NCBI GenBank assembly: GCA_003024175.1
Contig: MDYQ01000395.1
Coordinates: 62,001 to 126,000, forward strand
DNA length: 64,000 nt
Direction of reading: 5' to 3'
Source of the DNA: Planoprotostelium fungivorum
Lineage: Eukaryota > Evosea > Variosea > Cavosteliida > Cavosteliaceae
Part shown: one piece after another, positions 5,986 to 31,892 of the stretch
Position numbering within the stretch: position 1 is the first letter of the stretch
Layout: every line of letters begins with the position of its first letter
Position numbers and translations under genes: made by a program
The notes under the pieces: model-generated
The model's input: the letters and a program-made list of their open reading frames with translations, nothing else
Database searches by the model: none
Told to the model about the DNA's origin: nothing

Positions 5986-8900
5986 TCACAAGGTGAGCTC
6001 TACGAAATGATCGTCTCTCTCCACCTTCGGCTCCTCTTCCTGCATGACACATCAACATCAACATCATCATCATCACGATGGTCGTATAGACATTGTCACT
6101 CACCGGTGGCTTCTCTTCTTGGTTCCATTCTTCAGCGTCGACCAATTTCATGAAAGTCATGGACGTCTTATAATTCCATCCATACTTCTTTCTCAACTTC
6201 CTGATGGCGTAAGACACGACCATGCCCAAGAAGCAGACGCTCATCAGCACGACGAAGAACCTGCGGGGTTGAGTCCATCTACAACCAGCCACTCCGGCCC
6301 TCCCACCTCCACGCTCCGTCCATGGTGCTCATGAGAGCGACCATGCAGCAGAATTTTGTAAGAACGTTAATGGATGGACCACCGGCCTCCATCAGTGACG
6401 TACTTAGAAAATTCTCCGTCTCGGCGAAATACGCTCCCGTGTTGACCAGGGTGCTGCTCATGACCGAGCCGGATAAGAGGGCCCCTGGGAGAATTACGTC
6501 GGGGATAAGTACGGTACGTACCTCCGATGAACCCGATGAGTACTTCTTCACCAAAGATGACGTAGATAGAGACAGGAATCGCGATGGCAAACGTGGTCGG
6601 TATCAACAGGTTGACCATCGAAGTGTAGACGGCCCACGCCGCCACCTTTCACGATTTGAATTTCGAACGTAACGGTCACTTCACCTTCTTGTGTGACTTC
6701 CTCGTCGTGCTGGCCGCGGCGGCGTCTTCGAACGAAGCTCTGGCCGTGATGGATTTTGCCACCTGATGACGTCATCACTACGAACTATGACGTCATCGTC
6801 CTCACTTGTGACAGAGTCATCATGGTGAGAGAAGAGAAGAGGAAGGGCACCATCGCACCTAAGACGAGGCCGGGCAAGACCTGTGGATCTTTCATCAGAT
6901 CCACCGAATCGGGCCCTGCACGGTAAGCTACCGCGACGAACAAGCTGAACGAGACGAGGGCACTCGAACCTGAGATTTACGTGAGTTCTACGCATCCGCG
7001 ACGCGCATCTGCGAATCTGCGAACCTACCGGTCGAGAAAAATTTGACGACGGAAGCGCAGCGATGTCCCAACGATTCTAAGCTGATGCACTTGTCTATCA
7101 CTGATGGACCCTGGCACGTCATCTCAGCCACTCTCCTCGATGCAGAGAAGACGGAAGACACGGCGTTGTAGCACATCGAAGTGTTCTCGGTGGCCATCAT
7201 GGATAAGACTGCGATGGATATGCCAAATTGTCCGGCGAGGTATCCGGTGGACAGTAGAACGATGAAAACGATGAAGACTGGTGTGAGGGAAGAGGACATT
7301 CCGATGAGGAGAGCCTTGAGTAGGAGACCGAGGAGGTGTGTCTCTTCTTCCTGAAACGAGTCAGAGACGCATCTGCGAAATCGCGAGGAGCATTCGCGAT
7401 CTGCGAGGAGCATCGCGGATCTGCGAAAGGCAATTGTAGATGTGGATGAGATCACCTTGATGGTGTGGATCTGTGCTCGATCGGAAGAGTCTAGATCTCC
7501 TTCTCCTTTGATGTTCTTGGATGTCGTGATCTCAGCCATCACGATCATCACGATGCGGGAGCAATGCCCGATGACGATGCAACCGTACAATTGCGTGTTG
7601 AAATGCAGCAGAAAATTCACTGCGGCGGCCAGAGCTGATACGTGTGAGGAATCGGACGAAATTTCGAGTTACGTACCGAGGTAAGTGATGGAGGAGAGGA
7701 CCCATCCCGCTCTCATCCATCGGAAAATCGTCGTCGTGTTCGAATTTCGACAGAAGATACACAGGCTGATGAGAACCAGAATACTGCTGGTGACTGATGA
7801 CGTCATACCCACAGCGAGTAGCCAGAAGGGTAAGGCCATACCATCCACAGAGTACATCGATGTACCTGATTCGTTCAGTGAAACGACGGAAATTTCCGAG
7901 AAAATTCACCGATGGCGAGAGCGGACACCAGGGAGAGGAGGATGGAATCGGACACCTGAAATCTCGTCGGAATCTGTCATCGGTTCTATTTTTAGAATTC
8001 ACCTCGAGGGTTAAGCCCATGGCATTATCTACCACGTCACCGACGCATTGTAGAATGGCGACGGAATCGTAATTGACTTCCCTGGGATACTCTCTCCTGG
8101 GTAGAGGAGATCCGTCTTGGCTCGTTGTAGATGATATCCGTGATGAATTGGAGCCCACCGAGTCGAACGACCGCGAGGAGGTGGCGCGGTTGATGCCTGG
8201 GACTACCAGGGAATTATTTCTGGGAACGGTGGGACTCAACCCGGAGATATTCCGTGGGACATTGGGACTGGCGGATTTGGGACTCGAAAATTGGGGGGAA
8301 AAAGTGAGATCTGGTGAGTCCGTATCGTTCAGTCGGTTCTCTGCATCGTTCTCCACCCTCATCTTCTGGTAGGAAGTCTAAAAATAGATCAGGTTCCCGC
8401 CAGAAATCACCAAGAAATTTCACCTGAGTCGCTGCGGCAAAAATAGAACCACCGATACGTAAGAGAAGTAACACGATGGAGGCACCGAAGCCAAACGTGA
8501 TGACGCCCTCTGCAGCTTCCCAAAATAGCCTCATGACCGTGATCATGATGAGTAGTGGTGAGCATCCCACCAGACTGGCCACCAACGATGTTCTAAAGAT
8601 AGATCAGAGCGTTGTAGACGGTGAAAACTCACTGATAAGCCACGAGAAATCCCTCGAACATGGACTTGTCCGCGATCGCGTGGACCGTTCGGATGTTACA
8701 AGAGGAAGATATTCTACGAAATTTCCGTCAGATTTCTCCGAGATCTCCCTTCTACAACGAGACACACCTGAGGATGGCTAAGCAACTGATAGAGAAGAAG
8801 ACTGCAGCCAGAATGAAATCAATCATGAGTGTCCACGACATAGTCAGCCACATGACTAGACCGATGAAACCAAAGAGGGGATAGATGATGATCGACACGG

Positions 8901-10777
8901 CGGCCACGGTGGTCGTGCTGCCCTCTCCGATGATGCGGTTGATGGTCTCCAACTCGATGGAGCCTTTCGGGTATCTCCACACGATGATGGAGAAGATGCC
9001 ACCTGTGAGGGTGAGGGGGAGATCGAATGAAATGGAATAAAATGAAATAAAATGGAAGAGAAAATGGAGATTCGTGTGAATCGATCTAGATGCATGAAAG
9101 AGAAGACGCGATGTAGAAAAACGGATGAAAATTCAAGGTAAGCTAAATATAGATCGTGATGAATGGACTGACCCAGAATCCAAGCGAGGGAACAGAAGAG
9201 CATCAGCCCGATGACGGCGTGCCAATTTTGGATCTGCTCTCCTTGTATGTGAACGCTGTAGAAGGGTAAGCCCTTCGCCAGCTTGGCCAAAGTGTTCTGT
9301 AATTGGATCCCCCCGATCGCCTCCGATTGGTCCAAGAAATTCTCCACGGTCAAGTTCAACGATATCGGATATCTGAATGAAATTTCAATACGATGACACG
9401 GTAAAAAAGATGGCCGGGAGTGGGGTTCGAACTCGCGACTCACTTTCGGATCATGAATTCGGCCAGACTCTCTCTCAGGACTTTCGTTGCCGCAGCGTGA
9501 TGTACGAAGAAGGAATTCTCCTCGGTATCCGAGGCAACCGCTGGGGCTAAGCCTGGGCAACCTGTCTTGTAGATCTCGATGACGGCTGTCTCCTTGTGAT
9601 TTCCCTCCAGAACTACATACTTCAACTTCTTATCTTCCGCCAGACGAACTGCATCTTGGTTCCACATGTACTGTCCAAGTCAGAATCTTCCCCGAAATAT
9701 CTCAGAATTATCAAAAAATTCTCATGAAATTGTGAGAAAGATCTCAGAATCTTCTCGGAATTTTCTCACCTGAAAGAATGCAGTCATGAACCATGTGGTA
9801 AGGTTGCCGGGTGTCATCGATGTGACGGGATCGTTCACGATCGCTTTGAGATGACCACACCCGATGCCCTGCGGTTTACACAGCATATTCAATAGCCTCT
9901 CCTTCATCTCGTCCGGTGGATCTAACACGTAATCCTCCGTAACTCCGTGGAGACCCAGAGTGCCCGTTACGTTCTCCCAGGCGTGCATGTCGGTGTGCAT
10001 GTAAAATTGTCGGAAGGGTCCGACAAATTCTAAATAATCATTGAAGAGACCGGTGACGACGAATTGATTCATGGTGAGGCCGTTCCTGGGGAGATAAGGC
10101 GTTGTAGATGGAAGATAATGTGATATTTCACCTCTGGGCGATGTTGAGGGCCAAGAGGAATTCGGCGGCGTCGCCACCGGCCGTGGCGACGATACCTGAG
10201 AGGTTGAATGGACGATCTACAACGTTGTAGACGCTCACCGGCTCTGTATCTACCATCGACGCATGAGTAGTAAGATTCGGTGATGTTGACGAAGTGAGGT
10301 CTGCCAACGTGATGGAGGATGTCTTCGGTCGAGAAATTGGAGGGAAAAGCGGCGGTACCGGGAATGTAAGCCAAGAGATCGGCCTGATTCGAATCGATCA
10401 GAGACGATTTACAAGTTGTGAGGAGGAGAAGAGAAAAGTGGAAGTGAAGGTGGAGATGGAAAAGAAGAGAGGTGATTACCGTTGGTTGTTTGTCGATCCA
10501 ACAATTAGGACCGGTCGTATGTTTGGGCACTTCATGAGCTAACCAAGATCAGATCACATTCAATCGAAATGTTCTTCTTCAGTGGCAGCAGTTACGATCG
10601 AGAACATCGGTGAAGATGCATGCTTCGAGATCTGAAGAACAAAGACTTCTCACCTTCGGGATGTTTCGATTCCTGTTCTCCTGACTCTGTGGAAGCCCCT
10701 CCATTGTCTATGAACCCAAATAACAACAGACAAATGAGAACCACTCTCGTTCTCGAATTGCTGTATGAACTCTTCAT
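5986..10777 (-). CDS. membrane pyrophosphatase-like pseudoenzyme with N-terminal ectodomain
   Basis: ATG at 10777 starts a signal peptide (RVVLICLLLFGFIDNGGA). An extracellular part of about 300 residues follows, with blocks such as ATAGGDAAEFLLALNIAQ, NQFVVTGLFNDYLEFVG and CPGLAPAVASDTEENSFF. I do not recognise it. The rest follows membrane H+-pyrophosphatase order: IELETINRIIGEG, NIRTVHAIADKSMFEGFLVA, FGFGASIVLLLLRIGGSIFA, NYDSVAILQCVGDVVDNAMG, ASRRVAEM, SSLTMMTLSQ, FGEEVLIGFIGG, ILPGALLSGSVMSSTLVNTG and GGPSINVLTK. The catalytic DVGADLVGK segment is replaced by a long Ser/Asn-rich insert, and the C-terminal Asp/Lys motifs are also lost. It ends KVERDDHFVELTL at 5986. More than 15 short introns are present. 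It is probably a non-enzymatic membrane protein of the mPPase fold. Confidence 0.7.
6261..6306 (-). repeat. introner-like intron, inverted orientation
   Basis: This 46-nt intron of the minus-strand pyrophosphatase-like gene (between DGAWR and FFVVLMS) is GTGGGAGGG...CCCGCAG. Read on the plus strand it contains CCATCTACAACCAGCCACTC followed by CGGCCCTCCCAC. That is the same sequence as the plus-strand intron at 12210-12247 and the intron at 29956-29997, but inserted the other way round with its ends used as splice sites. Confidence 0.65.
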
Positions 10778-11384
10778 GTCTGGTCGTATGATATGGCTAC
10801 GCCCGTGCTTCCCGAAGAGGGGTCAGTTGACTGTGTTTGTGATCGCTTCGCAAGTTTTGTGTTCCGCATCTACAACAATGAATACCTCCCGGCATTCAAC
10901 CCCTCACCACTACCCGCTACGCTCGTGCGATGAATTGAGACATCGAAAGACGAAGAGATTCAATTATGTAGGAGCTCTTTATGTCATGGATGTATGATAC
11001 GCAGGAGTGGAGGTGCATCGTCTTCTGCAACGGCCCGAAACGATTAACACCAGCAGCGTAGAGGAACGACGAGGTGGTGGAATATGCTTCTCAGCGACGA
11101 TCAGATCGTTTCAAATTCATAGATCTACGCCAGATCCCCACTCTACATCCCCGTTCGAAATTTGAATTTCGTGAATTTGAACAATTCAACAACACCTTCT
11201 TGCCACTCTCACTCGCAGCGATACTGATAGCATCAAGATCTACTGATGCGATCTGTGGGACCATCAAGGGCTGCACCTTTGATATCATCTGGCACCTTTG
11301 TGGTCCACCACCTGTCAGCTCGACACGAGCCAGATTACCCTACGATTCGTTGGCCCCCATCAGACACAGCTGGGAGGTTAAACC
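10778..11384. promoter_or_regulatory. shared region between divergent pyrophosphatase-like and LRR-receptor genes
   Basis: About 600 bp separate two divergently transcribed membrane protein genes. No ORF here is supported. Only a weak CATCTACAACAATG variant of the iterated word is seen, at about 10868. It presumably holds both promoters. Confidence 0.4.
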
Positions 11385-14300
11385 ATGCACGCAGCCATAT
11401 CGTTACTCCTCAGTGTCTTACTGACGGTAGTTGCGAGTGAGTTTCCGACGCCAATAAACGCTGCAGCTACACCCGATCCTCCAGCCACACCGGGAACAAA
11501 CTCTATCGGTGGAACACCAGCTACGGTTCCAACACCGGTCAATACGGACAGCGGTAGCTCTGTAGCCGATGAGACGACAGCTCTGAAGAAGTTGTATTTG
11601 GATCTGGGAGGTGATAGAAACCACCGTAGAATCATCTCATAGAAAAAGGCACATCCTGGACACAGAGCACATCGTGGGCGACATTTACATCGGCGTGCAA
11701 CTCAACATCGGGGGTGACCACACTGTTTGGGGTCACTTGTAGTGGAGCTTTCGTAAGTGGAATTGATCTGTCCAACAACAATCTGATCGGAGAGCTGCCC
11801 GACGTCTTCACATCATTCTTGCAGCTGACGTATCTCAATCTATCGCTGAATCGAGGTCTCTTGGGTGACCTTCCACGTCCACCACCGAACATCCAAACAT
11901 TCGATGTATCACAATGTAATCTGAACGGATCGGCTGCCAATGCTTTCAACCTCAACCGTCCCATACCTCTTCTCTTCGCATCCGATAATCGTCTGCAAGG
12001 TCCGCTGCCCTCAATCATCAACTTCACCTCTTATTCATCACTATACGACTTGAGTTATAATGAGGTGATTTGTCTACAGACATCGACACATCATCTCATT
12101 CCATCTTTTCATTTTTCTCATTGAACATCACAGATCTCCGGCTCGCTCCCCGACTTCACCTCTAACGCAGGCATCGGTCAGCTCTTCTTACAATCCAATC
12201 AATTTACAGGTGAGCCATCTACAATCTGCCACTCCTGACCCTCCCAGGCCCCATTCCCAACGGTCTCCCCTATCTGTGCAACACATTGGACCTCAGCGCG
12301 AACGATTTCTCCGGACCGTTACCCTCTTACCTCTCACACTCCGGCGTACTGTACGCCTCCGCTGACAGGCTGATGCACTTGAACGTCAGTCACAATCGAC
12401 TGACAGGCTTCATCTCTCCGCTGTGGTACAACAATAGCAACGTGGGATCTATTTGGGACTTGAGGTGGGCGGGTGATTTGAAATTCGAAATTGACGGCGG
12501 CAGCTACAACCAGCTGACGGGCCCTATCGGTAGCTTCTCGAATGCGCGGATCATCCACTTACGCAACAATCGTCTGAGTGGTGAGTGCACACGCACGATG
12601 GTGTGATCATGATGTCGATGATGATTGACGAGAACAAAGGTCCTCTTCCTCCGATCAACTCTACTCAACTGACAGACTATGACGTCAGCAACAACCAATT
12701 CACCTCCCTCCCGTCTGACTTCTGCGATGCCTTGTCGCAGATGCAGAGGTTAGACCTGGGACACAACATCGTGGCGGGAAACCTTCCAGACTGTCAGCGA
12801 GTTCAATTCGATCGTCTGGCTTTCTTCTTGATGAACGACAATCAATTCACTGGTATCATCCCTGATTGGATGAAGAACATCAGTTTGGTACGCAGTGATC
12901 AGTACTACGACTGGCCCGTTCAGTGGAACAGAGACCGTGTGGGAACGGTGGATCTTTCTCGGAATTTTTTGGCGGGAAGGGTATCCGATCTGGCTCACGT
13001 CAACGCCACCGTTTTGAATATCAGTGGAAATTCATTTTACGGCGTCGTTCCCACCATGCCGAACGTGGACGTACTGTACGCCTCCGACAATCTCATCACA
13101 GGTGAGTCCACCCACGAAGACATGTCACTCACACTGACAGGTGTCAACGAGACGTACGTTACGTGTGATCTCCGGGGTAACCCTATGATCTGTCTACCGG
13201 CTGTAACGGGCGCCACTGCTGAGATGAACGCGTGCAGTGCAGCTTGCAACTACACTTGGTTTTGTGATGACGTCATCGATAACGTCGATTGTTCCCAGAT
13301 GACGTCACCACAGATGGTGTACGATGCGATCCAGCGGCTGAGTCCCTCTTCTCTACAACGAGCCAAGTGGACCGACAGGTGATGGTGTGCCGTGTAGGTG
13401 AATAACTGACCTACGCAGATTGATCGACATATTGCAGTATTCTTGGAAATTTCCCATTACGTGGGGTGATCAACTGAACACGGCCGCACTGTGTGCCCTG
13501 AACATCACACTGGGTGTACGTACGTTACGCTCCTATTCCCTGATTCCTTCAGAATCTCACCCGAGAGTGCTCTACTCTGGAAGTCGAATTGCAGGGAGAT
13601 CTCGCGGAGATTTCATTGACGGATGATTGGACTGCCCTCTCTTGGGCTCGACTGTACCACATCGCTGATGCCATCAACGGTTATCAGAACAATTCGAGGA
13701 TTGTCACATCTACAACGAGACTGTCTGGGAACGATAGTGTGAGTCTCAATGTGTCCCTGGGAAGGCCCAGCCGCGCATTCTTGTCCAAAGAGGTCACTGC
13801 AGAGATCCGACAATTATCGGGGGAGAAGCTATTTTTAGTCCAATTTGCCTTCAATCCACTGAAGGCAGATAACGACAGGTGACGATCTATCTATGGATTT
13901 TCCTGGAATTTACAGAGACAGTCTGTGGAGCATCTTGACGAACGTAACGGGTCTATCGATTTTGGGACAAAACGGAACGAAAATCGAAATTCAAAATTTG
14001 AATCACAACATCAGTCTCACCTTGTCCGTCGACAACTCCACGGGTGACCCAATCATCTGAAATTTCCCCCAAAATTCACATTGTACAGATGTGACGTGTC
14101 TGTGGTGGAACGAGAGAAGCTCTCATTGGTCTCCCGACGGTTGTTCATCCATCGTTCTCGATGAAATTTCGGTCGAATGTCTCTGCAATCACCTGACCAA
14201 TTTCACGCTGGGTAGACCGACACCGAAGCCAGTCACCAATAACTACATCACCACCACCGCCAACCCCCTTGGAAACTCCGATATCAGCTCCGGAAATTCC

Positions 14301-15612: not shown

Positions 15613-15676
15613 AATAGAACTATTGTAATTCCTTTCTATTTTATTCACAATGCGGGGAAACCGCTGGTAGATCATC

Positions 15677-16523: not shown

Positions 16524-16745
16524 TGTCTGTCTCTTGCTTTTGTGTTGTTGACTGTTGGATGTTGTTTGGAATGAGGTTTGTCTGACCCACACCTTCTCAG
16601 CGCCAATGCGAAACAGGAGAAAAGTTGAACGACGATTCGGTGTTGTTTCGGTAAGGGGCGTGAATTTTTGCGGTAGGAGAATTTTTCTTCCACACACAAA
16701 CGAGAATCCTCCGACCACCATTCCATGTCACGAAGTGTCAAGAAA
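15677..16745 (-). repeat. inverted gene duplication, right arm
   Basis: Partner of 4803-5858 in opposite orientation. It covers the coding region, both introns and about 220 bp of upstream sequence (ending near the GACATGGAATGGTGG stretch). Confidence 0.85.
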
Positions 16746-17116
16746 TCTACCGAACGAAACTTCGTCCCACCATTCTTATCACGTGACCCGAATCAACAAT
16801 CTCTGCCAAAGATCCTATGCTCCTCCTCCTTATGTCTCTTCGTTTGACTTACAGACACGAAGATGGATGCAGTTGTGGACAGATATCACCTTCAATTCAC
16901 CAAACAAAAACAAATAATCATCGAAGACGATTCGTTTTATCTGGAAGACACTGTCATCCACCATCACCTCGCATCTTGAAGATGAGGTCGCGGTGATGAA
17001 TTCAAAAGGAGGATTGGGGAAGAGAGACGACGGACTGCACTTGAAATGGAGGGCATGTGATCAGGATGGAGGGTGGCTTGGCGATCCCAACCCACAGGAT
17101 CCTGTGAAAACATCAA
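16746..17116. other. intergenic, nothing recognised
   Basis: About 370 bp without a supported gene, RNA or repeat. It is somewhat AT-rich near the middle (CAAACAAAAACAAATAATC). Confidence 0.4.
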
Positions 17117-18416: not shown

Positions 18417-18528
18417 CATTTTTGTGTGGGTACGTACGATTGTCCTGGTGGCAACTGTATCATACTACTAGAATAATAATTCGTGCCATTCTTGCCCTCG
18501 TTGAGAGAGAAGAGGGGTCACGATCGTC

Positions 18529-19510: not shown

Positions 19511-22500
19511 ATGGCTTCGACACGAACACGTTGGGCCACCATTCAGCCAGAATCCATCGATGGACTCTTTCAAGAGGCCAAGGGAATCGTACGACCTTTC
19601 AGCAAGGTCTTCTATGTGCCTCAGGGATCTCACTTGAAATTTGTCATCGCCGCCGGCTCTTCGGATTATCTGTTAAGAGATCTTTCGCTGTTCATCAATT
19701 ACCCTGCAGAGGGAAAGAAGTTTGACAGAAAGGTATTCCAAGAGATCAAGGCGTGAGTGTGGTCAGCCACTCCTACCTGAAATGTGAACGATGACAGATC
19801 TCCTTATAACGGATTAGACGATTGGGTGGCCGAGTTGAGACAACCCATTCAAGCCTCTGGTTTCTTCGAGTATTACTTCCAATGCCTCGAAAATGGATCG
19901 ACCGTCGTATCATCGAAGAGGTGTATGCTTCCCCTCTCATCCTGCCACATCTGACCCTCTCCAGATCTTTCAATGTAGAACCCGATCTCAAATTGAACGG
20001 TAAACCTCTCCCAGCAGAAGGCATCGTCATCCAAACCGCCCTCACCAAGTGTCTGGGCCATCTCGATGATTGGCAGTCTCATTTTCAGGAATCGTCCGAG
20101 CTGGGTTACAACATGATCCACTTCACGCCGGTACAAGAATTAGGATTCTCTGGCTCCGCTTACAGTCTGTACGATCAGGTGAGATGAGATGTCTCTCGTC
20201 TTCTCATCATGCATCCAGGTGTCGATCGAGCCGACCATCTTCACCGCAAAGACTCGCGCCAACGGTAAGACGGCCGCCAAACAGGTCTGTCTCGTTGTAG
20301 TCCGATCAACCTCTGAAAAATCTCTCAGGCTCCCGCCTTTCCCCAGCGTGAGGTCGCTCTACAATCTGCTATCCAGAAGATGGAAAAAGATTTTGGTCTC
20401 CTGAGTATGACTGACGTTGTACTGAACCACACCGCGAACAACACACCCTGGCTAGCAGACCACCCCGAGGCCGGTGAGTCGAGTTGGCTCGTTGTAGATG
20501 AACTGAAGACGACAGGATACAATCTCGATAATTCTCCTCACCTTCGCAAAGCTTTCGATGTAGACGAAGCTCTCTTGGTGTTCTCCACTGACATCCACGT
20601 GAGTTTTTTGCGAGTTTTCTCGCATCTGATCTAAATTTAGAACGGTGTGTACATGGATATACCAAAGGGAAATTTCTCAGAAGATGACGTACGCCACCTA
20701 CTGAGTGTGTTCCGCAGAACGGTACGAATCTTTGTGCCCATCTACAATTAATTCGGGCAGGTGTGGCCTCAGTGGAAGATGTGGGAGTACTACGTAGTCG
20801 ACGTCGCATCTACGATCGCACAAGTCAGCGCAGAATTAAGAGGAGATTACAAGTTTGATTCTAGATACGGTGCCGACCCCATGTCCGACTCTTGCTTTGA
20901 CCCCCTGAAGGTGGGAGAGGTGTGGGAGACCAAATAATTGAGACTCACAGACCCTCATGGATGATGGAATCCGCGACGATGGTCATCAGGGTCGTTTCAG
21001 CTTGAAGGTGAGATACGAAATCTCGACGAAATCTCACCATCATCAGATCGACCTGGATGTCCTCTTATCCATCTTCGGTTCCGAGGAACAGCTGTCACCC
21101 TCCGACGTAGAGAAGCGTATGGTACGTATGAGGCAAGTGCTGGACCAATTCAATGCGCCTGGTTACCATGCCTACGACACAGATACAGATCTCATCATTC
21201 AAAATCTCTTTCATCGAATCAATCGCGGACCTCTGTTACCCGGGAGACACATCACAGACAACTACTTCACCCGAGTGAAAGGTGACGTCATCCTCTTACG
21301 TAATGGCCGGTTGTAGTCTGACGTCCACCAGGTAGAGACGGTAGACAGATCGCCCTGGCCAATAACGGTTGGATTTGGGCGGGAAACCCTCTCATCAACT
21401 TTGCCGGACCCGAGAGCAACGCGTACTACCTCAGAGAAGTTATCATCTGGGGCGACTGCGTGAAACTCCGCTACGGCCTCAGACCCACCGATTCTCCATG
21501 GGTGAGTGACGATACGTACCGTACGTACTGACGACGTCAGCTGTGGGATCACATGACGAAATACTGCGAGTGGAGTGCGAAATTGTTCCACGGATTACGC
21601 ATAGACAACGCACATTCTACACCCATTCACGTTGCCCAGCACTTATTAGATGCTGCCAGAAGAATTCGACCGGATCTGTATGTCATGGCCGAACTGTTCA
21701 CCGGTTCCCAGGAATTAGACGAGCATTTCGTGTGAGTGGAGATTTCGATTTTGGACGTCACGTTTCCCGCCAAAATGACGATGTACAGTGCCAGCTGGGG
21801 TATCAACGCGCTCATTCGAGAGGCAATGCAAGCCTCTGATTCGTGGGATTTGGGACGTTACATCCACCGCTACGGTGGCTCCCCCGTTGGGTCCGTCTCA
21901 ATACCTCCCGGTGGATCGGACAACTTTGTCGTGTTACCCTCCCCCCCGTTGTCCATCGTTGTAGATTGCACGCACGACAACGAGACACCTCAGCAGAAGA
22001 GGACACCGGAGGACACCCTCTCTAGCTTCGGGTTGGTTGCCATGGCAGCCTCGGCCATTGGATCTACAACGGGGTACGATCAATTGGTTGCGAAGAACAT
22101 CGATGTAGTGCACGAGAAGAAGAGGTATTCCAGCATGAAGAAGGACGGAAAGTGGAAGGGTGAAAATCGGATGAAAACTCGGGGAAATCTGACGGAGTTA
22201 GGGGTCGGTGAGGTGAAGGCCATTTTGAACCGGCTGCACACTCGCATGGCTACGGAGAAATACGGAGAAGTCCACGTGCATCAGGTAGATTTCGTCGAAA
22301 TTTCAATCTACAATGCTAAAAGATGTGACAGGTCGACAATTTGATTGCGGTGCAGAGACACAGACCGGCGGACCACTCTGCCGTCTATCTCATCGCTCAC
22401 ACTGCCTTCAATCACGGTGCTCATCATCTCTCTCCAGAGACGTCCGTTGTCAAGGTGACGTAACGGGAGATTTCGTAATTGAGACGAGCAGGTTCCCGCC

Positions 22501-25359
22501 AAAATCACTTCCGTCATCGTTGGAGCGAGGATCACTGTACCGAGGGGGGTAGAGCAGAAGGACGATGAAGAGATCGCCGGCGTGGAATCTTCCTTGGAGA
22601 TTTCGACCCGCGACGCGTCGCAATTCGCAGATTTCAGAGTGACCACGGATGCCACCGGCAGCATGATCACCGAGGTGGGCTCGTTGTAGACGGTGAAATG
22701 ATTCGAAATTTACGACGACAGGTCCACTTGAAGAATTTCTATCCCGGAAGCATCCTTGCCTTCAATGCGGAACCGTTCCCAGAACAACAGGTCACGTGAT
22801 CTCGTCGACGTCGACACGTATTGAAATTCCACAGAAATCTCTCGTGGCCATTCGTGAGCAGTTGGCCGATACAGCTGCTCTGTACAAGACCTTAGAGGCA
22901 GTTAATCTGGTAGATCTGAACGTTCTACTGTACAGATGCAAGGAAGAAGAAGAAGCCACATTCGGCAGCAGCACATTCGACATCCCCAACTACGGTCGCC
23001 TCATGTGAGTTTTATTTCGTTTTATTCTCTGAAATTGAGACGGGCAGGTACTGCGGTATCGCTTCCTTCGATTGGCTCTTGGAGAAATTGAGACCGAGAA
23101 ATGACATGGGCCATCCTCTCTTTGGCAATTTGAGAGATGGAAATTGGATCCTCGACTACGTAACTGGTAGACTACAACGAGCCAAAGGATTGGACGGCGT
23201 GCGTCTCTGGCTGGAGAAGATTTTCGACGAGATGAAACGGATACCCAGGTAACGGATCGATTTTGGCGGGAAAACTCACTTCTATCAGGTTCTTGATTCC
23301 CAAGTACTTCGACCAGTGCGTGTCGACATTATATCATCTGTCGACACACAGGGCCCTGTCATCCATGTCCTCCTTCGTCCGTCCCAAATCCGAAACTTCC
23401 CACACTTTTTCCCAGAAATTAGCCCTCGGGTCCGTACAGCTGTACAGCTCCGTACAACACGCCTCCCTCCTATCGGGTACGTCCCTTCCATCTACAACCC
23501 GCCGACTTTTTCTCAGGTACAGATAAGCCCTCCCTGGCTGCAGGTCTGCCTCACTTTTCCAGTGGATACATGCGAGCCTGGGGCCGTGATACATTCATCG
23601 CCATTCGAGGTCTATTGATGGTGACCGGAAGATTAGAAGAAGCGAGAGATATCATCACCACCTGCGCTGGATTTATCCGGCACGGTCTCATGCCCAATCT
23701 TTTGGATGGTGGTCAGAACCCCAGGTATTTTCCCGTTCTCCCGTTCTTCCGTTCTTCCGTTTGTCCGACATGTATAGGTACAACGCGAGAGATGCAACGT
23801 GGTGGTTCCTTCAATCGGTGCAAGACTACTGCACGATTGCACCAGAGGGTATCAAACTATTGGACCAGACGATCGATCGATTGTTTCCGCATGACGAGCA
23901 AGAGAAGCACTCGACCTGGAAGGAGAAGAAGGAGCCCGTTCAGATGAAGCTGTCCGATGTCATCCACGAGATCTTCACCAAGCACGCCAACGGTGAGAAA
24001 TTTCGAGGAGATTCCGTGGAAGTTTGACGAAAATTTCAGGAATTCAATTCCGAGAGTGGAACGCCGGCACACGCATCGACGCTCACATGAGAGACGAGGG
24101 TGAGTTGTATCTACAACGAGCCATTTCTCGATGTCGACGCCGAGTCAGGTTTCAATATCAGAGTGTACACCGATTGGAGCAACGGTTTCGTTTTTGGCGG
24201 GAACGTCTGGAACTGTGGAACTTGGATGGACAAGATGGGAGAGTCGCAGAAGGCGGGATCGCAGGTGCGAATCGAGATGCGAATCATTACGTATCATGGA
24301 GACTGATTGGGATAGGGCTTCCCAGGGACACCCAGAGATGGAGCTGACGTGGAGATTGTGGGAATGTTGAAGTCTACGCTCCGTTGGTTGTCCTCCCTGC
24401 ACGAGCAGAAGAAGTGAGAAAATAATTTTATTTCATTTTATTCATGACGACAGGTTCCCCCACGCCGGAGTCGAAGTCAAGCAGGGAGACGGCACGACGA
24501 AAAAGGTAAATTTATTGTTCGTCTACAACGCTCACCCTTCCAGGTCACTTTCAAAGAATGGGATCAGCTCGTTCAACGAAATTTCGAAAACTATTTTTAC
24601 GTACCAGAAGATCCCAAACAGGACGAAGCGTACCACGTACGTACCGAGCACGTAAACCGCAGGGGGATCTATAGGGACACTGTCGGGTCCACTCAAGGCT
24701 GGTCCGATTATCAATTGAGACCTAACGCACCCGTTGCCATGGCAGTGGTAAGTTTTTTTCAAATCTCAAGTACATATCTCGAATGGAAAAGAAGAATTAA
24801 ATTTCTTGAAAAATATTGACGAGAGAAAACAGGCTCCCGAGTTATTCAACAGAGACCACGCCAGACGAGCCCTGGCCATCACCGAAGAGGTGATCCTTCT
24901 ACAACCTGCCATCGTCTCGTTGTAGATGTTGAATCTTCCAGGTACTCGTCGGCCCTCTGGGCATGGCCACTCTAGATCCATCCGATTTCAACTACGAGCC
25001 AGACTACGACATGTCCATCGACACAGACAACCGCAGGCTGTCCAAAGGCTTCAACTATCACCAGGGTCCAGTGAGTCCACCCTACCTCTAAACCCTAAAT
25101 CCACGTACAGGAGTGGGTGTGGGTGTTGGGCTACTACCTGAGAGCGTACGCCAACTTTGAGAGAGAAGACAAGAGGTTGACGCGTCATCACATCTCTCAC
25201 ATCATCGTGGAACACAAGAAGCACATCACAGAGTCACCCTGGAGAGGCATCCACGAGCTGACCAACAAGAACGGAAGCGAGTGCCACTACTCTTGCCCCA
25301 CTCAAGCTTGGTCTCTCTCTTGTCTGTTGGACACGCTGTATGATCTACGATTGGAATAG
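19511..25359 (+). CDS. AGL: glycogen debranching enzyme (4-alpha-glucanotransferase / amylo-1,6-glucosidase)
   Basis: This is a full-length homologue of eukaryotic AGL, spread over 20 or more exons. The N-terminal glucanotransferase part has [84 protein letters not shown] (nucleophile Asp region) and [17 protein letters not shown] (acid/base Glu region). The C-terminal GH133 glucosidase part has [120 protein letters not shown] and [22 protein letters not shown] at 19511 ([12 protein letters not shown]) fits the N-terminus best. It breaks down glycogen branch points in the cytosol. Several introns carry the CTACAACG word. Confidence 0.93.
20474..20515 (+). repeat. 42-nt introner-like intron in the AGL gene, inverted core
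   Basis: GTGAGTCGAGTTGGCTCGTT GTAGATGAACTGAAGACGACAG splits HPEAG from YNLDNSPHL. The human protein has HPECAYNLVNSPHL, so this stretch is absent from the mature protein. It carries TTGGCTCGTTGTAGAT, the reverse complement of the ATCTACAACGAGCCAA core. Its 42-nt length keeps the frame open, so naive translation would include it. Confidence 0.7.
24100..24148 (+). repeat. 49-nt introner-like intron in the AGL gene, forward core
   Basis: This intron lies between MRDEG and FNIRVYTDW (human MKDEGFNI). It is GTGAGTTGTATCTACAACG AGCCATTTCTC...GAGTCAG and carries ATCTACAACGAGCCA in forward orientation. Another AGL intron at 24890-24941 holds TCTACAACCTGCCATCG followed by TCTCGTTGTAGA, an inverted pair of the same word. 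Confidence 0.65.
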
Positions 25360-25550
25360 ATCAAGTTGATCTTCGCGGACATTGTCTATACGAACATCCT
25401 CACTCGCCCTGACCTGATGGCGACTGAGCATCATGAGGCTCAAGTGTTAGACAGGTTCAGTTGTCAGAATCGAAGTCCGAGAATTCCGACACGCTGTGAC
25501 ATCCTTCCACAGACAAACCTCCTTCATTTCCCTACCGCATATTCCCAACA

Positions 25551-26467
25551 ATGAGGAACATTATCTTGGCCTCTGCTCTTCTTTTCGCCTGTGTGACTGC
25601 CGCCCCTTCTGGTGTGTATACATACCACTCTTCCTCTCACATGGACAGGTATCTTCTCCACGAAGGACATCTTTGGAAAATGGCAGACTAACATCACCAC
25701 CTTCCCCAACAAGGCTCACATCGAGTTGAAGGGTACATTCAGCGACGTTACCATCCCCAACGGATTTTCTCTCTCTCTGTGGAAGGTCTGTATGATCTTA
25801 TAGACAATGGATCCAGCGCCTCATCTGAAACAGGCCGAATATGCGACTCAACAGTGGCTGGCCGATGTCTCCTCTAAGGAGGGACAAGTCACCATCGATG
25901 TCAACTCTCCCAGTGATTCCAGCTTCCAGCTCATCCTGCGAGCATGGCATCCTCAGGATGCTCTGAACACCGTTGACTTCTTGTGGTCCAAGAAGTACAA
26001 CACCAAGTCTGATTACTTCCTCAATCCCATCGATTGCAAATACCAGGTACCTCTTCGACATCATTTCCACCATCTAAACAGATCATCTGCAGGCCAAGAA
26101 GTTGTGCTCTGTCACCAACACTCTCACCTTCAATGCGAAGGGAAAGGCATGCGCCTCTTTACCTCTCAGAATCGATTTGGCTGATCTCACGTGAGACTCT
26201 CCCTCCATCACCCACAATGATGACATATCCATCCATCTTCATACAATCTTCTGATGTGATTGAGGCAGTTTTGGAGAGAACGAATTGTACCGAGACTCTG
26301 TTCTGAAGACCAACGTCAAGGAGGGAGAGAACTCTGTCAAATTGAACAAAGCCATGAGACCCAACCAGAGGAGCAGCATGAACATCGCCTTCTACGTGGA
26401 GAACCCCCAATTGAAGGGATCTGTCCAGCAGGTCGCCACTGCTTCGCTCCCTGTCAGCGCGAATTAA
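25551..26467 (+). CDS. secreted protein of unknown family (tandem copy 1)
   Basis: ATG at 25551 opens a signal peptide (MRNIILASALLFACVTAAPS). Four or five exons then give GIFSTKDIFGKWQTNITTFP, NKAHIELKGTFSDVTIPNGF, EGQVTIDVNSPSDSSFQLIL, RAWHPQDALNTVDFLWSKKY, LNPIDCKYQ, LTFNAKGKACASLPLRIDL, and finally LYRDSVLKTNVKEGENSVKL with MRPNQRSSMNIAFYVENPQL. The stop TAA at 26465-26467 is embedded in GAATTAAATAAACC, so an AATAAA signal sits on the stop. I do not recognise the family; alternating hydrophobic strands suggest a beta-rich fold. A paralogue follows directly at 26677. Confidence 0.7.
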
Positions 26468-26676
26468 ATAAACCCACTTCTCTCATCGTCTCGAACTCTT
26501 CAAGGGAGAACACAGCTGGAAACCTTATTGTTGATTGACAGATGCCTGCCTCCTTAGAAGCTTCTAAATGGAAAAAAGGTTCGACTTCAGATGTTCTAAT
26601 GGCAATTTGGCCTGTTGTTCGCGTCGTTTCGCGAATCACACGACGGTTAGCTCAGGACACAAATCTTAAACACACA

Positions 26677-27560
26677 ATGAGCAAGACACTCTTCATCATC
26701 TCTGCCGTTCTTGTCGTCTGTGTGGCTGCCGCTCCTTCTGGTGATATCCATTCTTTCTCTTTCTCTTTCTCACGGGGGCCAGGTATCTTCTCCACGAAAG
26801 ACATCTATGGAAACTGGCAGACCAACATCACAACCTTCCCCAACAAGGCTCACCTGGAGCTGAAGGGTACGTTCAGTGACGTCTCTACCCCCGCCGGCTT
26901 CTATCTCTCTCTGTGGGAGGTCCGTATGATCGCATCCATCGTCTGATCTGATGAAACACAGGCCGATTACGGAAATCAGCATCGACTCGCCGAGGCTTCT
27001 GAGGAGGAAGGACTTGCCACCATAGACGTCGACTCTGTCGGTGACACAGACTTTCAGATCATCTTACGTGCCTGGCACCCTCAAACTCTTCTAAACACCG
27101 TCGATATCTTGTGGTCCAACATGTATTCCTTCAAAGCCGACGCACTAGGGCTCAACCCCATCGAATGCAAGTACCAGGTGCAATCCGTCACTTCATTACC
27201 GTCTTCTGATTGCATCTTCTACAGGCCAAGAAAATCTCCGCCGCTGCGAACACCGTCACATTCCATGCGAAGGGAAAGGCATGCGATGTCTTACCTCTCA
27301 GGATCAATTTGGAAGACAACACGTGAGATGTCTTATTCGAGTGAGATCTGATGTGAAGCAGTTTTGGAGAGAATCAGATGTATGAGGATTCTGTCCTGAA
27401 GACCGACGTGGTGGAGGGAGAGAACATCGTCAAGTTGAACAAAGTCATGAGGCCCAACAAGAGGAGCAGCATGAAGGTCACCTTCTACGTGGAGAACCCT
27501 CGATTCCCAGGATCTGTACAGCAGATCGACTCAAACTCTCTTCCTGTTGGAAGAAACTGA
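26677..27560 (+). CDS. secreted protein of unknown family (tandem copy 2)
   Basis: Paralogue of the gene at 25551. It has a signal peptide (MSKTLFIISAVLVVCVAAAP), then GIFSTKDIYGNWQTNITTFP, NKAHLELKGTFSDVSTPAGF, the block DFQIILRAWHPQTLLNTVDI, LNPIECKYQ, FHAKGKACDVLPLRINLED and VLKTDVVEGENIVKLNKVMR, ending PVGRN at 27560. Intron positions match copy 1. The cysteines in IECKYQ and KGKACD are kept in both copies and could form a disulfide. AATAAA follows the stop within a few bases (GAGCAATAAAC). Function is unknown. Confidence 0.7.
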
Positions 27561-27669
27561 GCAATAAACTCTCACAGTCATCTATGGTTTCGAACGATGA
27601 TACTGTTATTTCTTACACCATTATTAAATAATATATACATAATTTGCATGGATGGCGCATTGCCGCATA

Positions 27670-27740
27670 TCCCTTATGGTGTAGCGGTAACATCCAAGAC
27701 TCTCACTCTTGAGCCCCGGGTTCGACTCCCGGTGAGGGAA
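27670..27740 (+). tRNA. tRNA-Glu (anticodon CTC)
   Basis: A complete cloverleaf can be read. The acceptor stem is TCCCTTA with TGAGGGA (one T-G pair). The D arm is around GGTGTAGCGGTAACATC. The anticodon stem CAAGA/TCTTG encloses loop CTCTCAC with CTC at positions 34-36. The T arm is CCGGG TTCGACT CCCGG, and the discriminator base is A. The B box GGTTCGACTCC is present. A T-run (CCTTTTTATG) follows about 5 bases after the end, as expected for RNA polymerase III termination. No intron. Confidence 0.95.
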
Positions 27741-28268
27741 CACCTTTTTATGATCTTCTTAACGCACTTTTTCGAAAAGGCGACGATTCGCTTGGGCCGC
27801 ACGATAGAAAGATGCAATACGATCCCATATGATAGCGGACAAGCGGTACGTTTTGATAAGACGTGTTGAACCGACCCGGATCTCCAGGAGAATCCTCGGT
27901 CGTTGTTTCATAGGCTTACCCGCCACAGAATTACTCTAAAACGTAGCTTAACCCGGACAAACCCACTTGCGACATTGCAAAGGACCCTTAAGTCGTGTGT
28001 CACCTTCTCTTCGTTCCGCATAATTTGACACACGAACGATAGAAGTGAGAGTCCACAGGGAGTAGAGAGGACGGTACAGTCGTCTGTGTCTCTATCTCTT
28101 TGAATGCGTTCGTGTGGTGCTCCAGTGACTTTGCGTTTTTGTCACGACACCTGAGCAAGTTTCGCGAGATGACACTTATCTCGCTGTATCAGCATTTTCG
28201 ACGAGCTATGAACCTTCTTGTTTTCTTGGTTCAAAAACAAGCCCGACCTACAGAATCAAGCGGGCGTG
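27741..28268. other. region after the tRNA holding one copy of a dispersed 39-bp repeat
   Basis: About 530 bp with no convincing gene. A 39-bp sequence at 27768-27806, starting TTTTTCGAAAAGG and ending CGCTTGGGCCGCACGATA, recurs at 37910-37948. The rest shows no tRNA-like fold or long ORF. Confidence 0.4.
27768..27806 (+). repeat. dispersed 39-bp repeat, copy 1
   Basis: TTTTTCGAAAAGGCGACGAT then TCGCTTGGGCCGCACGATA. The copy at 37910-37948 differs at about 6 of 39 positions, mostly between the two conserved blocks TTTTTCGAAAAGG and TCGCTTGGGCCGCAC. Its nature is unknown. Confidence 0.6.
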
Positions 28269-28610
28269 ATGGAGAGCACGCATGATATCGACACCAGCGA
28301 AGAGAAGACTCGTAAGAGGAGGAGACAGACACAGCATGACACCATCAAATATCTGAACGACTATCGGCCGCAGTTCCTCTTGGGACTGACACAGACGTTT
28401 AAGAGGATGAGGCACGATGACCCCCGAACGACGGTAGCTCAGTATTATCGTGCCCGAGGCCTTTTTCCGCTGGAAGCCACAACGTCTCAGATATGCATAC
28501 CCACTTGCTATGGTCAGACCCCTATTTATACAACATATAACCCTAAGAGGAAGACGAAACCTGTGAATAGCCAGAGCTCGAGAATCTCAATACAAAATCT
28601 CATCTCTTAA
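28269..28610 (+). CDS. small charged protein, paralogue of the gene at 32106-32564
   Basis: The frame from ATG at 28269 reads MESTHDIDTSEEKTRKRRRQ, TQHDTIKYLNDYRPQFLLGL, TQTFKRMRHDD, VAQYYRARGLFP, and ends SSRISIQNLIS. The protein at 32564-32106 shares the pattern (R/Q)-YDxIKYLNDxxPxF, KRxxxxE/D, ARYxRxRxxxP, PIY(I/T)T and a C-terminal SR(I/V)SIQNL(I/L). The conserved C-terminal motif suggests a binding peptide. The frame is open further upstream without an ATG, so an upstream exon is possible. Family unknown, likely largely helical or disordered. Confidence 0.55.
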   Translation: MESTHDIDTSEEKTRKRRRQTQHDTIKYLNDYRPQFLLGLTQTFKRMRHDDPRTTVAQYYRARGLFPLEATTSQICIPTCYGQTPIYTTYNPKRKTKPVNSQSSRISIQNLIS

Positions 28611-29138
28611 CATGCGTCTTCTGAAGTCGAAGTAACAGCGCTTTCGATCATCTATATGGAATTGGGACTTCATACACAACTTTATGAGATTAACCCCAAA
28701 CGCCACAGGATTCGCGTCGTTTCGCTAATCACACCATCCGATGTTAATGCATGCCACGATTGTGTCAACAGATATAGGTAACACCAGCCACCAACAGGAG
28801 CATCGGCACCGAAAGTCTCGTTGTTCCTCAGACCAGCCCAAAAGAGCATCATGCATTGGATCTCCCGAGGAAGCATCTGCTTCGGACTTGACCTCCTCAT
28901 ATAATCGGCGATTCTTCATAAGAGAGCCGATATGCTCTTACACTAAAAACAAAAAGTTCACATCGCATGATTCAAAATGATGACACGTGATTTCTCGAGG
29001 GGAGAAGACGCATGAGGCTCGAATCGAGACAAGAACAGATCTCATGGCCAACACCATACAAATCGATCCGACGAAACATCTCAATCACATCGCGTCCACC
29101 ATCCATGTTCCATCTCATGTTCGGCTCTTTATTTCTCC
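28611..29138. other. intergenic, nothing recognised
   Basis: About 530 bp between the small charged gene and the 3' end of the dynamin-family gene. No supported ORF, RNA or repeat is visible. Confidence 0.4.
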
Positions 29139-31892
29139 TCACAATTCGTATCCCTTTGGGTTACCCTTGGAGAAATCCGCCGCGTGCTGTCTCAGCAGAC
29201 TCTCCCTCTTGTCGAATCGTCCGAGCATGAGCTTCACGTCTTCCAATTCTTCCTTCAAGTTCTTCGTGGTGACATCCACTTCGAAGAGCTCTCTCAATTG
29301 GTCGTCGGTCATACAGGTGATGTTGCCCTGGACTTCGGTCCACAGCTCGCTCTGCCTGATGATCGTGTCAGCCGTTTGCGATGATGATGATGATCGCATC
29401 ACATTGGGAGGAGGAAAAAGTTGTATGTCTTGAGAGCCACGTTGCGAGCGATGCGCTCTCTCAACTTGTCAAACAGCTCGTGGGCGAGGCCAGACACTAC
29501 TTTTCTGACGTCCGCAGGGTTCGTGGGCTCCTGCACCTTCAGGTCCTTACCGTCCAAACTATCCACGTCAGCATCTACAACGAGCCGAAGATGAAACTCA
29601 CGCCGTACGCTCCCAGTAGATGATGCGAGTAGACAGAAACTCGTCCAGACATTTGTTCTTGCATGTCTCTGCAGTGTGCTCTACAAACTTGTAGTACAAG
29701 TCCTTCACGGTGTGGGTGAAGAAGGGATAATTCTCTAAATCATCGAATGCGTTCTACAACTCGTCAGGAGCATTCGAGATTTCTCGGAAATTTTACCTCC
29801 TTGCCGCCGATTCTCTTGCGTAACTTACGCTCCGAGTCCATCATCTGATCGGCAACATCGACCAGACGCCTCATGACATAAGTTGCCCTCTTAAACAACT
29901 GCTCCAAGAGAGGTAAGAGAGCCCTGTGGATCTGCTTCTGAACGATGTCGGCGGCCTAGTTGGGTCAGGAGTGGCTCGTTGTAGATGGTCGACTCACGGC
30001 CCACACGGTGTTGATCGCATTGTTGACTTTCTGCGGTCCGGTTGCCGTGGCGATGTCATCCATGCTCAACTCTTCTATCCTACGACATCTCAGTGAAATT
30101 TCCCCCACTTTTCCTCACTCGGTGTGATCTACAACGGCCTTAAATTCTGCCAATAATCTCTCCAATTGTTGTCCTCCGTACAATTTGGACGAAGCGTGTG
30201 GAATCTTCCATGCCTCTGGATCGTACTGGATGCGAGTGAATTCACGATTCATCCATTCTCCCGTCTCTGATTTGTGCTTCAGTCGAATGTTTCGTGTGGC
30301 GATGACTCACCGTCCTGTGCCTTCTCTTCCACGAGTGTCTGTCCGTTGAGGCCGGGATTACCTTCTAATGTGCCCAGCAAAAGCTTTTCGATGAGCTGTA
30401 AAAAGTGCATGACGAATCTGGAAGCGTTGCCGCGCAATTTGTTGCTGTCGAGGGAGGCCACCTGTTGCTCCAGGCCGGACAGTTTCTCCTCGGATCTACG
30501 GGAGATTTCAGGTTACGTACTTTGGTTACGCTCTCACTTCTTCTTCAAGAGACGTAATCTCTTGAGTAGGTCGGGGACGGCCGATTGATATCTCTGCCAG
30601 ATTGACTCCTGCAAGTGTTTGCGTAGACCTCCAATGCCGATGCATCCGGCATATCTGAATCTTTTAGTCATCTACAACGCGCCATTTTTTTTCACCTGCG
30701 GTCGTATTGCAGCTGCTCCAAGTTGGACAGATCGTCTTTCGACAGAGCATCGAGACGAGAGTAAAACTTGTCCTTGCTGTCTAAAGCAGCTCTCTCTTCC
30801 TTTCCTGGAAGAGTCACAAAGAAGGTGGGAGCGTCGCTGCCGCTGAGGGCGGTCAAGTACCTGTCAGATGTCATACGTACGTTACGTACGAGATTACGCT
30901 ACCGGTTGAGCTCCTTAGAGGAAGTGAAGCCCTTGAGCTTGTCCGATAGCTTTGTGAAAGCGAAGATGGTGCGATCTAATTTGGGATCCAGCCTGGACTT
31001 GACGAAAGAGGTGAGCTCGCTCTGTCCTCCCTCCTTGACTTCCTCGACGGCCAAGATGATGCGTTGAGATGGCTTAGACAGCGACACGATGAGGTCTTCG
31101 TCCTCGGTGCGAGTCTGTGGGGTGTGAGATGGATGTGGATTAGATATGATATGGAGGTGATGGGTATGATGATTGAAGATGGATGATGAGCGAGAGAATG
31201 GGAGACGCACTCCTTCTTTGGTGATGCTGAGGGCGGGGGTATCGTAGTAAGTGATGTTCCAGGTGTTCTTCGCCTCGTAGTGCAGGTGAATGGGAGTGGT
31301 GGATTTCACGTTTCTCTTCTGCAGTTCGGCTTCTAATTCGGATGGCTTCAGCACCTGATTTTCCGATTAGATGACTGATTCACAAGTGTAAAGTGGAGAG
31401 GTGAGAAGTCTAACCTTGTCGTTGGAGAATTCCTCCTGAGAAGCATCCCTCTTAAGGGTGATGATTGGCTCATTCGCATTCGGGTTGTTGAGAACAGAGA
31501 CGACGAGAGGACGCTTGTTTCGTGCGTGAGTCAAGGATGGTCGATTCTAACGAATGGACATCAAGAATGACGAACGAATTAAGGATATCTTCGGCGTTCA
31601 CTGGAAGAGAGGGCAGACCTAATAAGGCCTCCAAGACTGTCGTCTTTCCATGTGATTTCTTTCCAATCAGAACAATCTCGGGTGCCTCGAGTTGTGTGTT
31701 CAAACTGATGGAGTCAAACCCTATAGAGATCGCTAATCACGGATCCTCACTCTCTCGCAAATGTCTGCAGTTTGTTGAAAGAAGAGAAGACATCCTCACC
31801 CGATGCATTGGATGAGGGAGCGCTAATTGAAGTCAGATGAGAGGTGTTTAAATCGAGATAGAAAGGACTGACCTCTGTTGGGGTTGTGCCAT
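29139..31892 (-). CDS. dynamin-superfamily GTPase
   Basis: ATG at 31892 gives MAQPQQ, spliced to SAPSSNASGEDVFSSFNKLQ TFARE. Then come FDSISLNTQLEAPEIVLIG and the P-loop GKKSHGKTTVLEALLG, the dynamin GxxSxGKS/T form. A switch-I-like stretch LTHARNKRPLVVSVL follows. The DxPG motif reads YYDTPAL, and a TKLSDKLKGF stretch takes the place of TKLD. The stalk follows over several exons. The C-terminal GED-like part has REELWTEVQGNITCMTDDQL, RELFEVDVTTKNLKEELEDV and KLMLGRFDKRESLLRQH, ending GNPKGYEL at 29139. About ten short introns are present, one an introner-like copy at 29956-29997. It probably self-assembles on membranes (fission or fusion); the substrate is not clear. The 5' joins near 31740 are uncertain. 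Confidence 0.8.
29956..29997 (-). repeat. introner-like intron in the dynamin-family gene
   Basis: This 42-nt minus-strand intron is GTGAGTCGACCATCTACAAC GAGCCACTCCTGACCCAACTAG. It shares CCATCTACAA plus GCCACTCCTGACCC with the LRR-receptor intron at 12210-12247, in the same sense relative to its gene. The flanking exons read GP|A and A|ADIVQ. Confidence 0.7.

Follow-up and report, generated by a model that had tools for sequence, protein, structure and literature searches.

Why should unrelated genes of one eukaryote share nearly the same tiny intron, read forward in some genes and inverted in others? The question arises in a window of 64,000 nucleotides from Planoprotostelium fungivorum (contig MDYQ01000395.1, positions 62,001 to 126,000), where an earlier note, made from the sequence, had proposed a family of very short introners that can splice in either orientation. 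Analysis of the window and of further stretches of the same genome points to a different general cause: a short DNA word, TCTACAAC (hereafter the word), which belongs to a two-part site present in introns and in exons. On balance, we favour the view that a DNA-binding-site word of gene bodies has been accumulated by tiny introns, and that a minor introner-like subfamily exists beside it.

A strand-symmetric two-part site

The recurring unit is a strand-symmetric two-part site in which TCTACA is followed, after exactly 4 bp, by GCCA or TGTAGA. The 4-base spacer mostly starts with AC, and its following two bases are variable. Counted over the assembly (36.86 Mb in 471 contigs), TCTACAACNNGCCA occurs at 1948 sites and its reversed pattern at 14. 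The perfect palindrome TCTACAACGTTGTAGA occurs at 681 sites as opposed to none for the reversed-pattern control. The patterns CCATCTACAACNNGCCACTC (101 sites, split 47 to 54 between the strands) and GTGAGTCCATCTACAAC (113 sites) have no occurrence when reversed.

The spacing of the half-sites is strict. In about 260 kb with the ascertained centres masked, TCTACA-N4-GCCA was found at 53 sites, while any other spacing from 0 to 35 gave at most five, and TCTACA-N4-TGTAGA was found at 19 sites, with at most two at other spacings. The 53 sites comprise 24 in exons, 23 in short introns, 2 in long introns and 4 in intergenic DNA. In the window alone, TCTACA and GCCA stand 4 bases apart at 13 sites, and other spacings occur no more than twice. 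Two half-sites at a fixed spacing on either strand is how the site of a dimeric protein looks, and the unit is a putative site of this kind.

The similarity between introns is largely that of the site itself. Among motif introns not selected by a long pattern, the position of the word varies, informative positions reach only from about -5 to +12, whether the word lies in sense or in antisense, and likeness stops after about 18 nt. At two free positions, six different dinucleotides were found among 16 otherwise exact 26-nt matches.

Distribution over introns, exons and intergenic DNA

Gene models were obtained with a splice-aware gene finder trained on the window and 20 further stretches of 9-10 kb from the same genome. 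Introns and intergenic DNA were placed under one low-order background model, so the word itself was no feature of the intron model. The ab initio output contains 747 introns, 580 of them up to 60 nt long and 510 of 35-49 nt, with the consensus AG/GTGAGT ... CAG. The default setting was used for the density and codon tests, and a milder setting for placing 47 long-pattern matches and for comparing C-rich tails. Some stretches were omitted because a missed gene or repeats inflate the counts. L023, where a gene was missed, was left out of the word-ranking densities and, together with the whole window, out of one part of the codon test; L023 and a TIG-domain gene were left out of the exon-length analysis and of one part of the Leu-Gln and peptide test. 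L026 was omitted from all density counts because it contains a long inverted duplication, real or an assembly artefact, with mirror-image matches; it was kept among the 47 long-pattern matches, two of which are mirror images.

The word is most frequent in short introns, at 3.9 per kb. Its density is 1.3 per kb in longer introns, and exons (0.62) and intergenic DNA (0.60) are lower still. Once L023 is left out, the intergenic density falls to 0.34 per kb; chance would give about 0.03 per kb. Under milder intron penalties genes were merged and densities were similar (3.62 and 3.06 per kb in short introns, 0.62 and 0.68 in exons, 0.60 and 0.48 between genes). Both orientations are common in short introns, 32 of which carry the word in sense and 39 in antisense, with 4 of these carrying both. 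In 25 of the 562 short introns (including introns in L016, L027 and L028), the inverted word forms the 3' splice site as GTTGTAG followed by A, which is above uniform placement.

The word is not restricted to introns, since exons are enriched too. A reading of the word as a purely intronic signal was ruled out by its density in exons, about 20 times chance, and by a codon choice that follows it. Exonic density climbs from 0.20 per kb in exons below 100 nt to 0.96 in those of 300-500 nt, and for the next two length classes small numbers give 0.57 and 0.37; the dependence on exon length is suggestive only. Variation from gene to gene is large, with 24% of 55 genes lacking the word. By position along the gene, the word is present in 15 of the 137 short introns of the first fifth, compared with 18.9-26.4% in the other four fifths. 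There is thus no concentration in early introns, which speaks against a start-proximal enhancer. A viral origin was also considered and set aside, as scanning viral contigs for a 17-mer yielded 4 matches, close to chance by an estimate in which the size of the collection is not exactly known.

In the gene with the TIG domains, an open reading frame of 1400 codons at 41477-45676 contains six TIG-domain stretches and has 13 exonic occurrences of the word, of 18 counted over the complete gene model. Two tandem gene pairs, 25551-26467/26677-27560 (68% protein identity) and 55727-57801/58022-60007 (72%), have the exact TCTACAAC in none of their four genes; the second pair shares an intronic variant, TCTACAAGGATGTAGA.

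Codon choice and exonic copies

With amino acids held fixed, the word was seen 76 times in sense and expected 11.5 times, and its antisense form GTTGTAGA was seen 19 times and expected 1.5 times, so that both strands together give 95 exonic copies where 13 are expected. Without the window and L023, the values were 43 and 7.1 in sense and 15 and 1.2 in antisense. For 60 shuffled control words, the ratio of observed to expected had a median of 0.91 and a maximum of 3.6. The word is therefore enriched at synonymous sites beyond codon usage, and selection may lie behind this enrichment.

The dependence is on DNA. Sense copies lie in all three frames (26, 32 and 18), and antisense copies are read as GTT-GTA-GA in 18 cases, with one more in another antisense frame. 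The fraction of Leu-Gln pairs written as CTA-CAA varies with the next base (C 20/52, T 8/46, G 2/49, A 1/55), and a choice of codons that varies in this way is a DNA-level rather than a protein-level dependence. A protein-level reading of the exonic copies was ruled out by the three sense frames and the antisense frame, and by these next-base-dependent Leu-Gln codons. Peptides of the Leu-Gln frame are as numerous as expected (48 against 39-49), so no insertion is needed for that frame.

Comparison with homologs covered five exonic copies (one in a dynamin-family gene, two in AGL and two in a CSC1-like channel) from the 28 listed in the window. No insertion was found at the word in any of these five conserved copies; the dynamin and AGL copies sit in stretches aligned without gaps, and the two channel copies lie in a weaker alignment. 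Exonic copies in the window include the following:

30128..30135, plus strand: word in an exon of the dynamin-family gene, which is on the minus strand; codes VVD, homologous position, no insertion
21958..21965, minus strand: word in an AGL exon; codes IVVDCTHDN, ungapped against solved debranching enzymes
22063..22070, plus strand: word in an AGL exon; codes GSTTGYD, ungapped
51248..51261, minus strand: word with the GCCA half in the CSC1-like channel gene; within FLVLQLATV, no extra residue, one fewer than the solved relative
13352..13365, plus strand: exonic TCTACAACGAGCCA in an LRR receptor gene; SLQRAK (spacing scan)
8118..8131, minus strand: exonic TCTACAACGAGCCA in a pyrophosphatase gene; STTSQ (spacing scan)

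Short introns of the window

The earlier note had cited nine segments, and their letters and coordinates were as it gave them. Eight are called as introns at the default setting and all nine at a milder intron penalty, with predicted lengths of 38-52 nt. These nine, with three further features of the window, are:

12210..12247, plus strand: 38-nt intron of an LRR receptor-kinase gene; copied-looking family member (profile, gene model)
29956..29997, minus strand: 42-nt intron of the dynamin-family gene; family member in sense (homolog alignment, profile, gene model)
6261..6306, minus strand: 46-nt intron of an H+-pyrophosphatase gene; family sequence inverted, 6270-6306 on the plus strand (profile, gene model)
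10196..10238, minus strand: 43-nt intron with the perfect palindrome TCTACAACGTTGTAGA (gene model, spacing scan)
20474..20515, plus strand: 42-nt AGL intron, in frame and stopless, site antisense (called at the milder penalty only)
24100..24148, plus strand: 49-nt AGL intron, TCTACAACGAGCCA in sense (gene model, spacing scan)
24890..24941, plus strand: 52-nt AGL intron, sites on both strands (gene model)
35756..35800, plus strand: 45-nt intron of a short-chain dehydrogenase gene, variant palindrome TCTACAATGTTGTAGA (gene model, spacing scan)
47381..47423, plus strand: 43-nt intron, TCTACAACCTGCCA in sense (gene model, spacing scan)
30655..30695, minus strand: 41-nt intron of the dynamin-family gene, inverted site (homolog alignment)
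29754..29796, minus strand: intron of the dynamin-family gene with the 3' end GTTGTAG/A, the inverted word as 3' splice site (homolog alignment)
60732..60747, no strand assigned: perfect palindrome outside predicted genes (spacing scan)

Homology supports excision in the dynamin-family gene (29139-31892, minus strand). It has four motif introns, and the residues flanking them join as in the eight homologs shown. The junctions of 29956-29997 and 30655-30695 lie in gapless alignment to all eight; the junction at 29754 adjoins a variable loop, and at 29559 one homolog has one extra residue nearby. Named matches of the protein include dictyostelids, Balamuthia and Pelomyxa. When 20474-20515 is removed from AGL, 434 residues of the protein, compared in this spliced form, align to positions 2-439 of a glucanotransferase profile, nearly its whole length. 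The cited introns other than 29956-29997 and 20474-20515 are gene-finder calls.

The likeness claimed for the three main members in both orientations was confirmed: 12210, 29956 and, in inverted orientation, 6261 each align to 29-37 positions of a single 41-position profile. The matches are 12215-12246 (model positions 7-38, E 2.8e-10), 6270-6306 (positions 2-38, antisense to its gene, E 1.2e-9) and 29962-29990 (positions 5-33, E 3.9e-9), the E-values being rough by the search tool's own statement. The model was trained on 30 introns that included 12210 and 29956 and excluded 6261. The segments that had been called partial members are predicted introns whose likeness to the family extends over only about 18 nt. 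Similarity between introns also exceeds chance. Among 562 introns, 373 pairs from different gene models share a 12-mer on the same strand and 278 on opposite strands; 20 shuffled sets gave on average 23.6 and 18.4 such pairs.

The window further contains an inverted duplication in pieces (5229-5854/15681-16306, 4953-5206/16345-16598 and 4806-4858/16680-16732), 91-96% complementary and about 10-12 kb apart.

A copied-looking subfamily of introns

Gozashti et al. 2022 (PMC9860276) define introners as groups of at least four introns in unrelated genes with similarity that extends close to both splice sites. Family median lengths of 30-654 nt are given there, and likeness in the opposite orientation is also scored (PMC9860276). 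Neither the intron size nor the double orientation is therefore new, and the statement that elements of about 40 nt had not been described does not hold.

One subfamily in this genome may fit such a definition. Its introns, about 40 nt long, have in common the core and a CTGACCCTCCCCCAG tail, a unit of about 33 nt with constant internal spacing that runs precisely up to the 3' splice site. Its members in the window, by profile, are 12210, 29956 and the inverted 6261. The 3' end used to choose loci, CTGACCCTCCCNNAG, occurs at 20 places compared with 7 for the reversed pattern. Among the 19 tail-selected loci fetched, 16 have the word in sense at the fixed spacing (two of them identical in sequence), one has it inverted and two lack it. 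The tail is rich in C, with 6.0 C per ten bases in family introns (n=15) compared with 2.35 in other introns of the same genes (n=82; p 1.4e-8). Long-pattern matches in the fetched loci lie in predicted introns in 42 of 47 cases (16 sense, 26 inverted), and the remaining five look like missed introns of 39-51 nt. Copies thus occur in both orientations, a feature of introners, and the subfamily seems to have been truly copied from intron to intron, as introners are. The proposal of an introner family spliceable either way is thus supported in part, by this subfamily and by the inverted copy at 6261. Against it as a general cause stands, among other results, the presence of the word in exons, where codon choice spells it.

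Loci chosen by the 5' half behave differently from those chosen by the tail. Of the first 21 among the matches listed, one (L017) runs on into the tail and 20 do not; eight of these 20 run into the inverted half, four of them exactly. The core of tail-family introns starts 7-14 nt into the intron, within the 10-nt limit of the introner definition in 17 of 24, and most other motif introns lack likeness near both splice sites. No excess of flank matches, as target-site duplication would leave, was found in 24 tail-family introns compared with 500 shuffles, a test that covers the tail family and not the palindromic introns. Separately, an identical stretch of 60 nt lies in two contigs (L019 near 8660 and L027 near 3490) and is possibly part of a longer repeat.

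Intron turnover between paralogs

Five P-type ATPase paralogs (L024, L054, L095, L096 and L097) were compared; they are 33-60% identical, some are truncated at an end, the models are ab initio, and the comparison has no polarising outgroup. They hold 73 intron positions, 66 unique to one paralog and 7 shared. Unique positions make up 11 of 12 for motif introns and 55 of 61 for non-motif introns. Since motif and non-motif positions are alike unshared, gain or loss of introns proceeds at a high rate irrespective of the word, and turnover among these paralogs looks extreme. At the twelfth motif position, the intron of the other paralog lacks the word. One copy with 29 introns has 8 motif introns, and its 60% identical paralog with 18 introns has none. 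The two tandem paralogs of L012, 70% identical in DNA over 682 bases, have the exact word and its intron in common and differ in the intron flanks.

Other words with similar behaviour

Several other words rank in the same way. TTCCCGCC, GAAATTTC, TGACGTCA and GTACGTAC are richest in short introns, then in exons, and poor in intergenic DNA. In codon tests, TTCCCGCC was seen 16 times and expected 1.9 times, GGCGGGAA 19 and 2.0, and GAAATTTC 29 and 4.4, with ratios of about 7 to 10 for TTCCCGCC and GAAATTTC; the excess was weaker for TGACGTCA (13 and 4.5, about 3-fold) and CACGTGAC (4 and 1.3). A second gene-body word, TTCCCGCCAAA, which we take to be E2F-like, occurs 1076 times genome-wide as opposed to 4 times reversed. 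Some of the other words resemble known transcription-factor sites of the E2F, CREB/ATF and bHLH kinds. Compared gene by gene in 55 genes, TTCCCGCC and TCTACAAC rise and fall together in density (rho 0.59); the correlation with TCTACAAC is lower for GAAATTTC (0.41) and weak for the others.

Favoured explanation and alternatives

In the explanation that we favour, a dimeric sequence-specific protein would bind half-sites exactly 4 bp apart inside gene bodies, and selection at the DNA level would keep or create the site wherever the transcribed sequence allows. Introns of about 40 nt, being free of coding constraint, would collect the site in either orientation, and exons would take it up through synonymous codons. 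Some motif introns may then have been duplicated elsewhere. Once an intron of about 40 nt contains an 18-nt site besides its 6-nt donor, branch site and acceptor, it will look like a copy of any other intron so built. A wider form of this explanation, which we put forward tentatively, is that a vocabulary of strand-symmetric words in tiny introns and synonymous codons constitutes a gene-body mark, which copied introns would have helped to spread. Its role could be, for example, licensing, or the control of chromatin or recombination.

Several results weigh against binding-site accumulation as the main cause. The 33-nt unit common to 16 of 19 tail-selected introns needs copying. Within 250 bp of promoters the word is no more frequent than in other intergenic DNA (0.28 compared with 0.34 per kb), unlike an ordinary transcription-factor site. 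The gene models come from ab initio prediction, and in-frame introns that were missed, as 20474-20515 was, may account for some exonic copies. The amino-acid sequences VV[DE] (47 compared with 24-30) and STT (38 compared with 18-20) are in excess, so that insertion may have contributed to some degree in those frames. Of the two channel sites, one is flanked in the alignment by a one-residue deletion, and a two-residue insertion lies about 7 residues upstream of the other. The word CACGTGA breaks the ranking, being richest in introns but poorer in exons than in intergenic DNA, and the codon excess is small for TCAGAATC (11 seen, 5.2 expected) and absent for GATTCTGA (1 seen, 2 expected). The protein itself is presumed from the form of the site, and the palindromes could come from a tiny transposon whose terminal inverted repeats became joined.

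The main alternative is that a short nonautonomous DNA element inserts into exons either way and is spliced out, so that most motif introns are introner copies of various ages. We regard this as rather unlikely for the motif introns as a whole. It would account for the unit that runs up to the 3' splice site, the inverted copy at 6261, the C-rich tail confined to family introns, the high share of long-pattern matches inside predicted introns and the unshared positions of ATPase motif introns. However, non-motif positions are equally unshared, one shared ATPase position has the motif in one paralog and not in the other, and both L012 tandem paralogs carry the word. The exact core with flanks nearly free of information, in motif introns not chosen by a long pattern, and the variable dinucleotides at the two internal positions also speak against it, as does the lack of a duplication excess in the 24 tail-family introns. 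Exonic copies arise through codon choice, with no insertion at the word in the five checked, and several unrelated words behave much alike. If the palindromes were two joined terminal repeats and the half-sites single ends, both could be remnants of miniature inverted-repeat transposable elements, as the 681 perfect palindromes and the strict 4-bp spacing would suggest. This origin is improbable given the low intergenic density (0.34 per kb), where transposon debris is expected to collect, the five exonic copies free of insertion, and the lack of duplication excess in the 24 tail-family introns, the palindromic ones being outside that test.

We give little weight to two further explanations. 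A splicing signal in RNA, by which the word aids the spliceosome, could explain the introns that use the inverted word as 3' splice site; the two strands are, however, about equally used in introns, and in exons the excess over expectation is no weaker in antisense than in sense. A mutational or gene-conversion process that writes the word into gene bodies would affect synonymous sites and introns alike and might produce the large variation between genes. It is very doubtful all the same, as it would require a template and a preference for gene bodies, and the exact half-site spacing with variable internal bases seems to fit recognition better.

Comparison with known systems

The short introns resemble introners, as defined in PMC9860276, in that similar introns lie in unrelated genes, in both orientations and at a length inside 30-654 nt. 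They differ in that most of the likeness here is an 18-nt site that is also exonic by codon choice, and in the missing duplication excess in 24 introns. Judged by the titles among the matches listed, an open-access library yielded no published account of the word and none of introners in Amoebozoa. If the favoured explanation is true, similar short introns can stem from a shared functional site rather than from mobile introns, and this genome is an example, among eukaryotes, of codon choice visibly shaped by a word at the DNA level. Intron positions turn over fast in the only gene family compared, so the genome may also offer a way to test how introns are gained.

Duons are transcription-factor sites inside coding exons. 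They share with the word a DNA-level constraint on synonymous codons, but the density here is highest in introns and is not raised near gene starts. HIP1 and the DNA uptake sequences are genome-wide words of bacteria, which are likewise short, far above chance, and present in coding and non-coding DNA on both strands. The word described here is, in contrast, that of a eukaryote, has two parts with fixed spacing, and is concentrated in introns. The PATCs of C. elegans are periodic signals in introns by which expression is licensed. They are also an orientation-indifferent DNA feature of gene bodies, mainly intronic, whereas the feature in Planoprotostelium fungivorum is a sharp sequence word rather than a periodic A/T pattern.

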